Below are positions 19,479-63,246 of a stretch of 64,000 bases of DNA, piece by piece. Positions within the stretch are counted from its first letter, which is position 1. Each line of letters opens with the position of its first letter. The DNA is from SAR202 cluster bacterium bin22 (lineage in GTDB: Bacteria; Chloroflexota; Dehalococcoidia; Lucifugimonadales; UBA3495): NCBI GenBank assembly GCA_002238505.1, contig MPMM01000007.1, positions 62,001 through 126,000 on the forward strand, written 5' to 3'. Under the pieces are notes generated by a model. The model worked only from the letters and a program-made list of their open reading frames with translations, was not told where the DNA came from and did not search any database. The translations under genes were made by a program, and so were the position numbers.

Positions 19479-20705
19479 CTAGTTCCAGGTGATTGGCAGC
19501 GACTTCAAAGACCGGAAGGTAATGCTGGGCTGGTACTCAAGCTGGTCCTCGGTGGTGTCGAGGTGCAGGGACTCGAAGCGCTCAGCGAAGGCCTTGAAGG
19601 CTTCCTGACCTTCCACCCGCACCAGGGTGGCGCCCAGGCAGTGGTGAATGCCCGCCCCGAAGGCCACGTGGGGATTTGGCCAGCGGGTGATGTCGAACTG
19701 GTCAGGATTCTCGAACTTGCGGGGGTCACGGTTGGCCGAGGAAATGAACCAGCGGATGCGGTCTTCCTTCTTAATCACCTTGTCCCGCAGTTCTACGTCC
19801 TCGGAGGCAATGCGGGTGATGGACTTGACCGATGAATCGTGGCGCAGGCACTCCTCGTTGGCCTTGACGTACATGCCCTCGATGTCGCTCCGCAGCAGAT
19901 CATACTGGTCCGGATTGCGGATGAAGGACAGGATGCCGTTGCACAGCAGGTTGATGGTGGTCTCGTGGCCGGCCAGCAGCAGCAGGGAGGAGTTGGAGAT
20001 CACCTGGTCGCGACTGAACACACCCTCCCGCTCACCCTGGGCCAGGACGGAAATGAAGTCGTCCTCGGGGTCAACGATGCGTTTCTCCACCAGAGGAGTA
20101 ACGTATTCAATCATCTCGCGAATGCCCTCGGAGAAGTTCTGCATGCGCCAGGGTTCGCCGCGACCCACGTACAGGAGTTTTTCAGCCACCTCGCGGATGT
20201 GAGGGCGGTCCTGCTTGGGCACGCCCATCATTTCAGCGATGATGAGCAAGGGCAGAGGGGTCGCAAAATCGCGCATTACGTCCATGCTGCCCCGTTCCTC
20301 GGCCTCGTCCAGCAGGTCCTTGATAACGTCCTTGATCATTGGCCGCCACTCTTCCATGGAGCGGGGAGTGAAGTAGCCGTGGACCACCTTGCGCATGTCC
20401 AGGTGATCCGGACGGTCGTGCTGGATGAACTGGCGGGACTGGTATTCGCGCACGAACTCGTACAGCCCCAGGTCGGAGTCGTAGATGGTTGGGTAAGGAG
20501 GCCGGGGGTCGTTCTTGAACACCGCCGACGAGAATAGTTCGTTGTGGCGGGTCAGCCAGACCAGGTCGTCGTGACGGGTGATGACCCACAACTGGTAGAG
20601 TTCGTTCCAGTGGACCGGGTCTTCCTCCCGCAGCTGGCCGTAATAGGAGTAGGGGTCGTTGAGCGCCTGGTCGGTGAACATGTCGTCGCTTACAGCAGTA
20701 ACCAT
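19479..20705 (-). CDS. Cytochrome P450 monooxygenase
   Basis: A soluble 408-residue bacterial P450. Visible are the I-helix oxygen-activation motif LLAGHETT, the K-helix ECLRHD (ExxR) and the heme loop AFGAGIHHCLGATL with axial thiolate C356. The N-terminus DDMFTDQALNDPYSYYGQLREEDPVHW is typical of CYP107/CYP102-like class I enzymes. It probably hydroxylates a hydrophobic small molecule with electrons from the ferredoxin downstream. ATG 20705 is preferred over the upstream in-frame start at 20744 because AAGGA and GGTGG lie before it and the extension is not P450-like. Confidence 0.95.
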   Translation of the reverse strand: MVTAVSDDMFTDQALNDPYSYYGQLREEDPVHWNELYQLWVITRHDDLVWLTRHNELFSSAVFKNDPRPPYPTIYDSDLGLYEFVREYQSRQFIQHDRPDHLDMRKVVHGYFTPRSMEEWRPMIKDVIKDLLDEAEERGSMDVMRDFATPLPLLIIAEMMGVPKQDRPHIREVAEKLLYVGRGEPWRMQNFSEGIREMIEYVTPLVEKRIVDPEDDFISVLAQGEREGVFSRDQVISNSSLLLLAGHETTINLLCNGILSFIRNPDQYDLLRSDIEGMYVKANEECLRHDSSVKSITRIASEDVELRDKVIKKEDRIRWFISSANRDPRKFENPDQFDITRWPNPHVAFGAGIHHCLGATLVRVEGQEAFKAFAERFESLHLDTTEDQLEYQPSITFRSLKSLPITWN

Positions 20706-21193
20706 ATCGCCACCATTCCTTAATAGCGTTACGAAATTTGTCAACCAGTGTACCCGAAGGATATCGAAATCACTGGAGATCTGCCTTTAGTGGATTCTAT
20801 CAATGTATTCAGTTGCAGGTCAAGGAGGGGCACACCTTGCAGCGTAGCCTTCCAGGTGGCCGAGGTGCCCGCGGGCCTTTCCCGAAAGGCCGCAGCCAGG
20901 GGCCTTTCCTGCTGTCCCGAAACCGGACCGCCTGGATACGAACGCTGCCCGGGCCAGCAGCACGATATTCGCGATTGACCCTTTTGTGGAAGATACATAA
21001 CCCAAAGGTCCAGGGCCAGGCGCCGGACAATCGCAGCTTGCGGCAGGGGATTAAAGTCTTGACCGACCATCCGCGTGCCGGGAGAAAAAATTATTCTTCC
21101 CCTTATTTGCGACCATTTCCGCTCACTCTGTAGCTGCGATGTGATGGGCCGTGGGCGTTGCTGGCAGCATTTTCACCTAACCCCGGGACACCT
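20706..21193. other. 488-bp intergenic region, no gene recognised
   Basis: Several open frames of 60-130 codons overlap here on both strands, but none has a convincing start or composition, and they contradict each other. A GGGCCTTTCCCGAAAGGCC-type hairpin lies near 20874-20893. No RNA motif was recognised. Confidence 0.55.
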
Positions 21194-33240: not shown

Positions 33241-34746
33241 TTAATTTCCGTCTCTTGCATCAGCAGGAACTTTTTCGTCAAGTGCATTGGCTAAGAGAAT
33301 TGCCCATTCGAAATTGTTGAGCAAATCAATGACACGCTCAATATCGTCTCTATTCAACCGACTCCTAGGTGTGCTACGTCGAATTGACTCGGTAAGCTGC
33401 TCAACTAACTCGCGCCGCCCATCATCTTCAATGCGGTCGAGGATAGCTAGCACGCTTTTTAGGTTGTGCTCTTTGAAACGTAGTACATCACCCTCGTTGG
33501 TAAATGACTCAAGAACTACTCCTTGAACCACGCTGCGAGACCACTGAACTGGACCCTTGGCAAGTCCCTCCAAGAAGTCAATTGCTAAGTTTGCTGTACC
33601 TTCTGCAGCTTGAAGGATGTTGCGCCCTAAGTCAATTTGTTGCTCTTCAGTTAACTCAGAAGCGTTCTCAGGACCGTTCGACTCTATCATCCTCATCGCT
33701 GGATTTTGTACATACCAGTTATGCGCTTTAAGTGCATCGATCAAATTCTCGAAACAAGTCCCTGTCGAGAGTTCAGATTTCAGAATCGTATTGATAGGTG
33801 CGTTGGAAATATGATCGAGAAATCGCGTATGTTGGCGAGCCGACAAAACACCGTCTGAATTCAGCTTCTCTACAAGAGTAAGCAGGCTTGGTTGGATTGC
33901 GGATTCTTCCAACAGCATACTAACCATCGAATCTTGAGCTAACTCTCCAATGCCAGGAAATATCGCACTACTGCTACAAACGCGGGGCAATGTCTTGGGG
34001 TAATTGTTGACCTTATTGTGCCACTCTTCGGAGCTGAGCAGAGCTACGCTGACCTCTTCCAACATGGCATGACAAAACCACAAACCCCGGCGGAAGAAGA
34101 CTGACATACTAGGGTCATCGGCAAACTTCTCCAATTCGTTCCAGTATTGATCCATGAACCACGGGTAGAGTTGTTCATCCAGTCTCGGTAGAATTCTCTT
34201 GGCAAAAGAGGAAACGGCGATTTCAAGGTCATCGAGATAGCTTCTATTCTCCAACAAGTTCTTAAGTAAATCTCGCGCGAATCCATGTCGCAACTTTACT
34301 GGCTTTGACAGTACTAATTCGACGACTTCTGATGCTGCTTCTATCACCTTTTCTTCTGAGGGAGCTTCCTCGTAGGGATGTCCATAAACGCATCTCATAT
34401 CATAAATATGTGATAGGACAGTCAGTTGCGACCCGGACAGAAAACCATATTCTTTGGCCTCTTCTAAGAGAAACTTGTCCACCGCCTTGTGACTTTGCTC
34501 CATGTCCTCAAACTGGCCAACGATTTTTCCTGCCACATTGTCCCGGACCGCAGCTTCTTTAAATCTTCGCTTCAGTGACTCTGCACAGGCCAGCCCAATT
34601 ACAATATAAGCCGAACGCAAAGCACCTACCTTGGACGCTTTTACTGCTTCCTCAAATAAGGGCTTATCTTCTGGCACCAAAATTCTGTCAAAATACTCTG
34701 CAAGATCAGCTGAACCTTGGATTAGCTGCTGGTTCGTTACTTCCAT
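33241..34746 (-). CDS. Low-GC HEPN-like protein of unknown family
   Basis: A 501-residue all-alpha acidic protein; I do not recognise its family. Residues ~95-135 (SHIYDMRCVYGHPYEE) hold R118-x4-H123, the signature spacing of HEPN ribonucleases, on a helix with a following acidic helix. Flanking segments rich in Leu and Glu look like coiled or repeat helices (LEEVSVALLSSEEWHNKV; NILQAAEGTANLAIDFLEGLA). Composition is much AT-richer than the surrounding genes. It abuts tRNA-Val, a usual integration site. ATG 34746 was preferred to TTG 34767. The HEPN assignment is inference from a short motif and helical context. Confidence 0.75.
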   Translation of the reverse strand: MEVTNQQLIQGSADLAEYFDRILVPEDKPLFEEAVKASKVGALRSAYIVIGLACAESLKRRFKEAAVRDNVAGKIVGQFEDMEQSHKAVDKFLLEEAKEYGFLSGSQLTVLSHIYDMRCVYGHPYEEAPSEEKVIEAASEVVELVLSKPVKLRHGFARDLLKNLLENRSYLDDLEIAVSSFAKRILPRLDEQLYPWFMDQYWNELEKFADDPSMSVFFRRGLWFCHAMLEEVSVALLSSEEWHNKVNNYPKTLPRVCSSSAIFPGIGELAQDSMVSMLLEESAIQPSLLTLVEKLNSDGVLSARQHTRFLDHISNAPINTILKSELSTGTCFENLIDALKAHNWYVQNPAMRMIESNGPENASELTEEQQIDLGRNILQAAEGTANLAIDFLEGLAKGPVQWSRSVVQGVVLESFTNEGDVLRFKEHNLKSVLAILDRIEDDGRRELVEQLTESIRRSTPRSRLNRDDIERVIDLLNNFEWAILLANALDEKVPADARDGN

Positions 34747-34839
34747 ATGGAGAACAATCCTTCTCAAGTCACATTTGGGAATGAGATGCCGACACCTGAT
34801 CTATCAGGTCTTTCGGAGTGCCCACCATTCATCTCCCCC

Positions 34840-41575: not shown

Positions 41576-43027
41576 CTATCGCTGGGGGATCATCCTTAGC
41601 AGGTAAGTCCTTGACGAATTCTCCATGCCCAGTACCTCGTTCATGGTCAGGGGGGGTTCTTCCCTGGGTTTGAACTGAAACCGGTTCAACAGGCGGGTCG
41701 CGAAAAGCCAGATGGCGGACTCCGCAAGTTCGCGTACTATAGCGGCCTCCTGGTTGACCCCAAGAGTAATTCCAAAGGGCATGACCGGCGCCGTTTGGGA
41801 GTTGTCGGGTCCGGACCCGAGTCGTTCTGAACGGGACCGTTCGGGCAGAAACCGTTTGGGGCGGAACACCTGGGGTAATGCCCAGAACCGCTCGTCGTGA
41901 TGGATAGCATAAATATTGACCAGCGCCTGGGATCCGGCCGGCACGTGGTAACCGCCTATCTCCGTGGACCGGATCGCCCGGAGCGGCGAGGAGAGGGGCG
42001 TAACGGTCAGGTAGCGCATGCACTCGGTGATGCAGGCTAAGGTGTAGGGCAAGTCTCCGCGATCATCGGACGTCGGCGCCTCACCCCAGCCCAGCACCCG
42101 CTCCATCTCTTCGTGGATCCCCGCTTGAATTACAGGCCGGTTGGCCAGCAGCACCAACAGCCAGCCCAGCAGCCGGCCCAGCCCTGAGGGCGCACCGGTC
42201 AGGACGTGGCAACAGAGGCTGCGCACTTCGGACCAGTCCAGGGTTCCCTCTGCCTGGGCGGCCAGCATGATTTCCGCCAGGCAGGTGGGTTGGGCTGGGT
42301 CGAACTCGGGCCTCAGGCGTACCCCGTCAATCAGGCCGGCCACTATCCTGTCCCGGTCCAGTTGCGGCAGTTTCGACTCCTGTCTCGGCCTCTTCGTGTG
42401 ACACTTGAGCGAGGAAAGGAGGTTGGAAGGGTGCAGGGAGTTGTTGGTGGCGTTGGTCCAGGCGGTGTGCTCCCGCAATTGGCTCTTCAGGCTCAGAAAA
42501 TCCAGCGAATCATGGCGACTGTTGCCGAAAACGGCGCGGAAGCTCAGGTTGTAATCAATATTATCCAGCTCCCGTGTGGGGTTGATGAACTTTCCCCATT
42601 CCGACAGATGTTGCCATCGTTCCAGCAGTTCTTCCACCATGGGTTCCGCGTGGTTGTGCACCAGCATCTGCCGAACGCCCGGCCCAGACAGTTTCTGCTC
42701 GGTGAAGCGGCGTAACAGCAACCTTTTGTTGCGACCAGCAGTGCCCGGGAGGTCTTGACCCTGGTTCGAGTCCGGTCCAGTGTGCGGAGAATCCAGTTGC
42801 CATGTATTGGCCTGCTGGAATGCTTCAACCATCAATTCCGGGTGGCTTATGACCACCGTGGGCACATTGCCGATGTGGAAGAGGAATACGTCGCCGTATC
42901 GCCTGGCCAGCCGACCCAGGCTCTGGTGGTCCGGCGCCTTGACCAGGAAAGGCAGTGCGCCCAGCAGCGGCAGACTTCGGGGCCCAGGAGGCAACTGGGG
43001 CGGCGCCAAAATGGTAGAAGCTTGCAT
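41576..43027 (-). CDS. Cytochrome P450-fold protein lacking the heme cysteine
   Basis: The 483-residue protein has an unmistakable P450 scaffold: proline-rich PPGPRSLPLLGALPFLV hinge (residues ~13-29) as in microsomal CYP2-like enzymes, K-helix ECMR (E335, R338), the meander FRPKRFLPER and the L-helix LFATRLLNRFQFKP. The heme loop is wrong: MPFGITLGVNQEAAIVRELA contains no Cys where FGxGxRxCxG is expected. The I-helix oxygen site AGxxTT is also replaced (LTGAPSGLG, ~277-284), and the usual C-helix Trp-x3-Arg is missing. It cannot be a normal thiolate P450 and looks like a pseudoenzyme or a diverged catalyst. ATG 43027 is preferred over GTG 43030. No TM helix. Confidence 0.9.
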   Translation of the reverse strand: MQASTILAPPQLPPGPRSLPLLGALPFLVKAPDHQSLGRLARRYGDVFLFHIGNVPTVVISHPELMVEAFQQANTWQLDSPHTGPDSNQGQDLPGTAGRNKRLLLRRFTEQKLSGPGVRQMLVHNHAEPMVEELLERWQHLSEWGKFINPTRELDNIDYNLSFRAVFGNSRHDSLDFLSLKSQLREHTAWTNATNNSLHPSNLLSSLKCHTKRPRQESKLPQLDRDRIVAGLIDGVRLRPEFDPAQPTCLAEIMLAAQAEGTLDWSEVRSLCCHVLTGAPSGLGRLLGWLLVLLANRPVIQAGIHEEMERVLGWGEAPTSDDRGDLPYTLACITECMRYLTVTPLSSPLRAIRSTEIGGYHVPAGSQALVNIYAIHHDERFWALPQVFRPKRFLPERSRSERLGSGPDNSQTAPVMPFGITLGVNQEAAIVRELAESAIWLFATRLLNRFQFKPREEPPLTMNEVLGMENSSRTYLLRMIPQR

Positions 43028-43030
43028 CAC

Positions 43031-43481
43031 ACAACAACTCCTTGCGAAGGTTCAACGCATGAAAGCGACAGGCTATGGCAGGTATCTGATAAAGAACAAT
43101 TATAGAGTCGCCCGCATTTAAGGCCAATAACTTATGAATAAAAATTCACACCGGGCCCATTTCCGAGGGCAAAAGGGCCTGATCCCCAGGCCTTCATGTT
43201 CGCCAAGGTCTTCCGAACTCCACGGGCGGTTTCCGGCCCGTGCTCGGGGTCCTCACTCCCACCGACCCTGAAAAGACCTGCGCCTTGATGTGCCGACCGG
43301 CGAGACGCTGGTGCGAAGAAGGGGGAGGCACAGGCAGAATCAGGGGGTTGCTGGACATTGACGTCGACCAGGTCGCCTCAAGGGGCAGGACGTACTGACG
43401 GGCGGCCCTTCATCTTGCCCTTTCCCGCCTGCGGTGGTAAATTAGCCCGAAACCAGCAGACTAGAATAGGGGTGTTTTCAG
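43031..43481. other. 451-bp intergenic region, no gene recognised
   Basis: No frame on either strand has a convincing start, length or composition. A few direct GGCCT and CCGGGCC repeats are present. The stretch ends with the AGGGG region before the CoA-transferase start. Confidence 0.5.
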
Positions 43482-61046: not shown

Positions 61047-62069
61047 TTATCGTTCCTGTTTGTTTTGTGCTTCCCGAACCTGCTTTTGTCTTTCTCTAGT
61101 CTCCTTCAGAAACTGACTGTCTTTCTTACAGTGTTCGATAATCCACTCGGCAATAGCTGGGCTGTATTGCGTCGGCGAGTTTGGTATTCGGCCTTGGTAA
61201 TAATACTCTGGCCTATTCTTGATCCCATAAACTTCATTTAAACACTTTACGTCGAATGCATTAAATTTAATATCGGGGACTTGGCTCTTTACATACTCTA
61301 TCAAGTCCTTTTGGCGATACGGATGAGAGAGACTGGGATCCTTGGGAACTTCAACAACTTGGGTTGGACCGTGATCAGAAGGCCCAGAAGACAATTTCAT
61401 GTCCGCATTTTCAGATTTCTTATCTACAAGAAGACGATATTCTATGGTAATGGAGAACTCGCTGGGTCGACTTAGTTCATCGAATTCTTTCCTAATGTCG
61501 GCACAAAACCTGCTTAGGAATTCAAAGGCTTGCGGGCCCAGGTCCCCACCAAGTCGGTTGTTGGTCAGCGCAGTATTTTCTGGACTGAGGTCATAGACTA
61601 TGCTCATCATTCCAACGGGCATTTGATCTGAAAGCGATCTGTTGAACCACTCGCGAAGGTTCTTATGATAATTCACTACTCCTGCCTGAAAGAGTGCCAT
61701 TATTTCGGCTGGAATGTGAGCAATGACCAGATGAACCGCTTCATCGCGTAATTCTTCGATTCGTTCGATGTTGCGGCGTACAGGCTCCTTTTCGTTAGGG
61801 AAGACTCTACTCAAGCTTTGTCTGAGCGATAAGGATCTTCGTACGGGGCCCTCTTGTTGGGAATAGAAAATAGCCTTGTCTTCTTTACTATCGTCCAGGA
61901 TCTTGGCCTTTAGAAGCAACTCCCAAGCATTGCAGATAAGGTAACAGAACGCTTCCAACCTGTATCTAATGGTGATTCGGTTGATGGTCTCTAATGCGAG
62001 AACATAAGCGTCGAAACTCTTGTCTAATAAGCGCCCCTTTAAATCGAAATCATTATTATCGCCTTGCAT
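61047..62069 (-). CDS. DUF3644 protein, HEPN-type
   Basis: The 340-residue protein matches DUF3644 (PF12358): DKSFDAYVLALETINRITIRYRLEAFCYLICNAWELLLKAKIL in the first 60 residues. Residues R108-x4-H113 (LRDEAVHL) are the HEPN ribonuclease spacing on a long helix, as in abortive-infection proteins. The C-terminal half is variable (SLSHPYRQKDLIEYVKSQVPDIKFNAFDVKCLNEVYGIK). It is AT-rich compared with aroB and sits between a hicB remnant and aroB. ATG 62069 is preferred over the 62165 start, which overlaps aroB sequence. A defence role is inference. Confidence 0.85.
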   Translation of the reverse strand: MQGDNNDFDLKGRLLDKSFDAYVLALETINRITIRYRLEAFCYLICNAWELLLKAKILDDSKEDKAIFYSQQEGPVRRSLSLRQSLSRVFPNEKEPVRRNIERIEELRDEAVHLVIAHIPAEIMALFQAGVVNYHKNLREWFNRSLSDQMPVGMMSIVYDLSPENTALTNNRLGGDLGPQAFEFLSRFCADIRKEFDELSRPSEFSITIEYRLLVDKKSENADMKLSSGPSDHGPTQVVEVPKDPSLSHPYRQKDLIEYVKSQVPDIKFNAFDVKCLNEVYGIKNRPEYYYQGRIPNSPTQYSPAIAEWIIEHCKKDSQFLKETRERQKQVREAQNKQER

Positions 62070-62130
62070 GAAGAACAACCACTCCAAAGCTACTATAGTC
62101 CCGGCGAAGGGCAAAGTGACAGCTCCTCCC

Positions 62131-63246
62131 CTACCCCACAATCTCTCGCACCGTCCGGTCCACAAGTTCCACCGGGACGTTGCGCCGCACCGATGCCTGG
62201 CCTACCCCGTCCAGCATTACCCACCGGTTCGTGCCGCCGGCTACCTTCTTGTCCAGGGACATGGCCCGGCGGATGTCTTCCGCATCGACCCCGCGGGCGG
62301 TGGTGGGCAGGTTGAACCGCTGCAGCAGTTCGTACTGGCGGTCAACCAGGTCCTGGCCGTGGAAGCCAAGCTCGCAAGCCATTTTGGCGGCGCCCATCAT
62401 GCCGATGGACACACCCTCGCCGTGCATGAACCGGCCGTACTCGGTGGACGCCTCCAGCGCGTGGCCGATGGTGTGGCCGTAGTTCAGCAGGATGCGGATG
62501 TCCAGCGTCTCGCGCTCGTCCTGGCTCACCACCTCGGCCTTGATGGCCATGCTGCGCCGGATCACTTCGGTGGAAATCTCCGGTTCCACCTCCATCAGGG
62601 CCTCGGCGTGCTCCTCGAACACGTCCACCAGGTTGGCGTCCATGATAAAGCCGTGCTTGATGGCCTCGGCCCAGCCCTCGGAAAGTTCCCGCTTGCCCAG
62701 GGTGGACAAAGCCTCCACGTCGGCCAGGACGGCTTTAGGCTGGTAGAAGGCCCCCACCAGGTTCTTGCCCTGGGGCAGGTTCACCGCCACCTTGCCGCCG
62801 ATGGAGGCGTCCACCATGGCCGCCATGCTGGTGGGCACCTGCACGAAGGGGACGCCCCGCAGGAAGGTGGCCGCCACGTACCCGGCCAGGTCGCCGACCA
62901 CGCCGCCGCCCACGGCCAGGATGGCGTGCCCCCGCTCGGCCCGCAGACCCACCAGCCATTCGTAAATGGCCTGGGCCAGGCTGTTGGTCTTGCTGGGTTC
63001 CCCGGGCGGGATGATGAAGCAGTGGGCGGCTATGCCCTTCTTCTGCAGCGCCCGCTGGGCCCGGCGGCCGTAGCGGTTCATCAGATTTTCGTCGGTGATG
63101 ATGTAAACGGGGCTGCCGATGTTCAGTTCTTCCAGCCAGTCTCCCAGCCGGTCAATAATGCCCCAGCCAGCTACGACGGGGTAGCTGCCCCCCGAGTGGT
63201 AAACGGTGGCGGCCAGGTCGGGGTGATTGCTTAAGGTGTTGGTCAT
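62131..63246 (-). CDS. aroB: 3-dehydroquinate synthase AroB
   Basis: AroB converts DAHP to 3-dehydroquinate in the shikimate pathway using NAD and a divalent metal. The 371-residue protein has GGGVVGDLAGYVAATFLRGVPFVQVPTSMAAMVDASIGGKVAVNLPQGKNLVGAFYQP, KHGFI and the metal motif NYGHTIGHALE. All core residues look intact. AAAGGAAG sits upstream of the ATG. It is flanked by two low-GC genes, so the shikimate gene is isolated from other aro genes in this window. Confidence 0.97.
   Translation of the reverse strand: MTNTLSNHPDLAATVYHSGGSYPVVAGWGIIDRLGDWLEELNIGSPVYIITDENLMNRYGRRAQRALQKKGIAAHCFIIPPGEPSKTNSLAQAIYEWLVGLRAERGHAILAVGGGVVGDLAGYVAATFLRGVPFVQVPTSMAAMVDASIGGKVAVNLPQGKNLVGAFYQPKAVLADVEALSTLGKRELSEGWAEAIKHGFIMDANLVDVFEEHAEALMEVEPEISTEVIRRSMAIKAEVVSQDERETLDIRILLNYGHTIGHALEASTEYGRFMHGEGVSIGMMGAAKMACELGFHGQDLVDRQYELLQRFNLPTTARGVDAEDIRRAMSLDKKVAGGTNRWVMLDGVGQASVRRNVPVELVDRTVREIVG

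Follow-up and report, generated by a model that had tools for sequence, protein, structure and literature searches.

A P450-fold protein of a SAR202 cluster bacterium without five conserved heme contacts, a probable heme-free pseudoenzyme

The animal CYP1, CYP2 and CYP17 proteins are membrane-anchored heme-thiolate oxygenases, and at ~20-24% identity they are the closest solved structures, by both sequence and fold, to the protein described here. To our knowledge, selected P450s without a heme ligand are rare, and the macrolide glycosyltransferase activators are the sole kind that we identified from a paper. EryCII, the heme-free activator of EryCIII, has no cysteine ligand and a mobile heme site, while its helices I-L are conserved (PMC3391682). 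The protein described here shares with EryCII and DesVIII (TIGR04515) a P450 fold without the axial cysteine, a mobile or disordered heme region, and the I, J, K and L helices. However, its TIGR04515 score is 18.2 bits, as against a curated cut-off of 343, and whereas EryCII carries an additional helix at its N-terminus and is missing the C helix, the model of our protein contains the C helix and lacks that N-terminal one. It should be placed neither with the heme-thiolate P450s nor with the glycosyltransferase activators, although it may work as the latter do.

The gene lies at positions 41576-43030 (-) of the 64,000-nucleotide stretch of DNA that was analysed (hereafter, the window). It is a single intact frame of 484 codons without an internal stop, beginning at a GTG or at an ATG at 43027, and a Shine-Dalgarno sequence, AAGGAG, can be read at 43038..43043 (-), 7 nt before the GTG and 10 nt before the ATG. 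A promoter-like TTGGCC-17-TATAAT at 43099..43127 (-) has 10/12 matches, and is weak, as 0.5 such matches per region are expected by chance. The GC content at the three codon positions (0.63/0.45/0.74) follows the pattern of coding genes, and the value at the third position (GC3), lower than in most neighbours (0.79-0.89), fits a weaker constraint. Elsewhere in the window, the open frames at 33241-34767 and 61047-62165 (-) have a GC3 of 0.46 and 0.49, far below their neighbours, and are perhaps acquired DNA, or not genes.

In the profile search that the initial annotation of this DNA had proposed, the protein matched Pfam p450 over its full length (186 bits, 1.4e-54, profile positions 1-452 of 462; cut-off 22.8), and the P450 models of NCBIfam all scored below threshold. 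The elements that serve the fold were read correctly in that annotation and are all retained: the hinge LPPGPRSLPLLG, the ExxR motif (ECMR, 42014..42025 (-)), the P-K-R-F meander (PxRF) and the L helix. Numbering from the GTG shifts these readings by one codon, such that E335/R338 becomes E336/R339.

The residues that hold the heme have fared otherwise. The heme loop, VMPFGITLGVNQEAAIVREL (41726..41836 (-)), has indeed no cysteine, as had been reported, and Ala430 aligns to the cysteine of relatives. The FxxGxRxCxG motif is lost beyond this one position, since the arginine at C-2 has become Glu428 and the glycine at C+2 Val432, and four residues have been added after PFG. Three further replacements are seen in the alignment, at positions whose CYP2C9 equivalents, R97, W120 and H368, we take from established CYP2C9 structures to be heme contacts: Leu79 (42794..42796 (-)) stands in place of the heme-contacting arginine of relatives (R97), Arg103 (42722..42724 (-)) in place of the C-helix tryptophan (W120), and Leu350 (41981..41983 (-)) in place of a histidine (H368). 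Thus the equivalents of CYP2C9 R97, W120, H368, R433 and C435, invariant in 15/15 relatives, are replaced in 5/5 cases. Among the 15 relatives, 55 columns are invariant, of which the Cys-less protein keeps 41 and loses 14, and the chance that all five heme contacts would fall among the lost 14/55 is P 5.8e-4. In CYP2C9, R433 is linked to W120, H368, R97 and the heme, and the Arg433Trp substitution, a change at the C-2 position alone, leaves the holoprotein undetectable (PMC7912942).

These relatives, approximately 15 in number and 29-38% identical over the alignment, were found by searching the gene's own genome and its kin, and come from four genera of the family, other parts of the order, and one alphaproteobacterial bin. 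The Chloroflexota members (L006-L018, L028, L035 and L037) and the alphaproteobacterial L036 have the same hinge, ExxR motif and meander as the Cys-less protein, but differ from it in keeping the cysteine and the four other heme contacts; the cysteine is present in 15/15 usable relatives. The initial annotation had hoped for a set of homologues that conserve the loss, and none was found. Searches for orthologs sharing it covered 99 relatives, 50 genomes of the family, 250 of the order, 393 of the class and 400 of the phylum, together with the contigs of 84,980 species (for close relatives only), plasmids and viral contigs, and returned none closer than ~39%; the class- and phylum-wide genome samples gave no additional strong match to the protein. 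Among its Cys-bearing relatives, it therefore stands alone in lacking the cysteine. Its own genome, rated 97% complete, contains two other P450-type genes, both Cys-bearing, and no Cys-bearing member of the same P450 family.

The I helix carries a replacement of its own. As previously noted, the oxygen-activation motif AGxDT has given way to LTGAPSGLG (APSG, 42161..42205 (-)), yet the Cys-less protein does not differ from all its relatives in this respect, for the Cys-bearing L017 and L036 have GAVPSG in the same stretch. In a tree from which the I-helix, Cys-loop and B-C columns had been omitted, the Cys-less protein, L017, L036 and L028 fall together on one side of a branch with support 96/98. 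All four have glycine at the position of the oxygen-activating threonine (PSG, PSG, PSG and TDG, respectively), and the rest have threonine. Because three of the four threonine-less members still possess the cysteine, it is most likely that the threonine was lost before the cysteine, and the loss of heme probably followed that of the catalytic threonine.

Divergence of the Cys-less protein is unevenly distributed along its length. In the hinge, beta-1, J-K and beta-2 regions it equals or exceeds L017 and L036 in its match to the family consensus, whereas in the Cys loop, the B-C, F-G and C-terminal parts it falls far under both; in the Cys loop, 25% of the consensus is retained, as compared with 58-79% in the divergent sisters. 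An end branch of 1.71 over all columns had suggested general acceleration, an explanation that was rejected when a split of the columns confined the excess to the pocket face. On scaffold columns, the branch lengths from the shared node are 1.23 for the Cys-less protein, 1.07 for L017 and 1.20 for L036, while on the heme- and substrate-facing columns its branch is saturated; the regional comparison of consensus had already been made when the columns were divided in this way, so that the division is not an independent test of it. Decay of the whole gene should not give such a pattern.

The predicted structure is that of a P450, in agreement with the reading made from the sequence. An AlphaFold model built from 20 aligned sequences has a pLDDT of 73 and a pTM of 0.75, and superposes on 4r21 (CYP17A2) with Z 30.5 over 387 residues at an rmsd of 3.0. 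Foldseek and VIA-align group it with CYP17A2, CYP21A2, CYP2D6 and CYP1A1. Residues 400-428 and 81-99 have pLDDT <50, and the heme loop, at 34-42, is predicted to be disordered, as compared with 83-90 at the matching positions before the cysteine in L017, which was modelled on the same alignment rows.

As far as can be read from the DNA, then, the data show an intact gene whose predicted P450-fold product has none of five conserved heme contacts, its divergence being specific to the pocket. We consider it likely that the gene encodes a heme-free pseudoenzyme derived from a P450, whose vacated pocket may receive a ligand or partner. The initial annotation had proposed a pseudoenzyme on the strength of the missing cysteine and the replaced oxygen-activation motif, and that proposal is strengthened by the disappearance of the entire heme-contact set. 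The alternative offered alongside it, namely another heme ligand, is very improbable, as is a heme that sits in a shifted place. Retention of the P450 fold is consistent with such a hemoprotein, and other heme families do use histidine or methionine as the ligand, but the loop contains no His, Met, Cys or Tyr, it is predicted to be disordered, and the five family-invariant contacts, including those that bind the propionates, have been lost together. An error of assembly or consensus is harder still to credit. The assembly is incomplete, and within the B-C part one stretch of ~50 bases, 42764-42808, resembles the family a little more closely when read in a different frame (P ~0.02, uncorrected, for one of several regions examined), which would hint at a compensated shift; however, that frame still lacks the heme-contacting arginine and restores no heme residue, the lost sites span 350 codons with every one in frame, and the neighbouring genes are intact. 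A frameshift hiding a normal P450 loop was likewise rejected, as frame-switching alignment is at chance level in the Cys loop, where the other frames gain no more than random codons would (P 0.5-1.0); the initial annotation, too, had seen no frameshift. Frame-switching controls gave no signal, save for one weak case in L036. The worry, raised in the initial annotation, that this might be an isolated artefact is borne out as to isolation, but not as to the pattern of change, which is unlike that of an artefact.

A recently dead gene, that is, an orphaned P450 drifting without its pathway partners and by chance still free of stops, is a more substantial rival, albeit an unlikely one. It would account for the orphaned position of the gene and the absence of an ortholog of the FAD oxidase found beside its sisters, for the solitary Cys-less state, for the lower GC3, and for the faint B-C signal that could reflect a compensated frameshift. 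Yet the scaffold evolves no faster than in the functional sisters, and the ribosome-binding site is intact. Furthermore, in simulated neutral drift stops appear beyond ~0.1 changes per site, and such drift cannot account for five lost heme sites together with a rebuilt loop.

The genes surrounding the Cys-less gene are unrelated (DUF2851, CoA-transferase III, asparaginase and lactonase); none of the six neighbours searched is a glycosyltransferase, and nothing recognisable as a partner or ligand gene adjoins it. Synteny with Cys-bearing copies of the same genus is not shared. A CoA-transferase III gene, at 33-36% identity, is also found near some family members, a proximity that may be coincidental if CoA-transferases of this kind abound in these genomes. 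By contrast with this setting, L017 and L036, which come from different phyla, each adjoin an FAD amine-oxidase-type gene and an MMPL transporter gene; the two FAD oxidases are homologous (29%, 8e-53), and a squalene/phytoene synthase also adjoins L036. A neighbourhood of P450, FAD amine-oxidase-type and MMPL genes is common to L047, from a Chloroflexota genome, and L036, from the alphaproteobacterial bin, with an MpaB/rubber-oxygenase-like gene near the former and the squalene/phytoene synthase near the latter. The presence of these genes beside the sisters' P450s suggests an ancestral isoprenoid-lipid chemistry. In the genome of the Cys-less gene, squalene/phytoene synthases occur elsewhere, and no ortholog of the sisters' FAD oxidase could be detected, and the P450 may thus have been left behind as an orphan; the MMPL search was uninformative, as it missed a known copy in G038.

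The sequences show that the protein descends from a P450 family of the Chloroflexota in which all the other members retain the heme-binding set. Its subclade most likely lost the oxygen-activating threonine of the I helix first, after which the lineage of the Cys-less protein lost the axial cysteine and the residues that hold the propionates, its outer scaffold remaining constrained as in the heme-binding sisters. On the reading of a heme-free pseudoenzyme, the protein would fold without heme, and its emptied, reshaped pocket, along with the B-C/F-G face, could take up a ligand or dock a partner protein, comparable to the way in which the EryCII scaffold activates its glycosyltransferase. We infer that it is heme-free and non-oxidising, with a role in ligand binding or scaffolding. 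The sisters' neighbourhoods suggest that the ancestral substrate may have been an isoprenoid lipid, and it is tentatively possible that the protein is now a non-catalytic binder or sensor of an isoprenoid ligand, or a scaffold that activates a partner, which arose from a bacterial family resembling CYP1/CYP17, on a path separate from that of the macrolide glycosyltransferase activators, and whose halfway stage (threonine gone, cysteine kept) is still alive in its sisters. Should this be true, it would represent a second, independent origin of heme-free P450s, in another phylum and P450 class, and the sisters would display a stepwise path in which oxygen activation was lost first and heme next. 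The Cys-less protein would also offer a concrete comparison for what the P450 scaffold can do without heme.

The hinge is of the CYP2-like kind that the initial annotation had found odd in a bacterium, but this is not peculiar to the gene, as the entire bacterial family is nearest to animal CYP1 and CYP17 among solved structures. For L006, L010 and their relatives, the best solved relatives are the animal CYP17A2 and CYP1B1 (~210 bits), far from the usual bacterial P450s, and an old transfer between animals and bacteria is a possible explanation of this resemblance in sequence. With respect to other P450s of the same genome, the gene at 19479-20744 (-) of the window keeps its cysteine (GAGIHHCLG), and the P450 at G000:C53:365057-365770 (L002:1462-3486, -), which also keeps it, is fused at its N-terminus to a GPP34 (Golgi phosphoprotein 3) domain.
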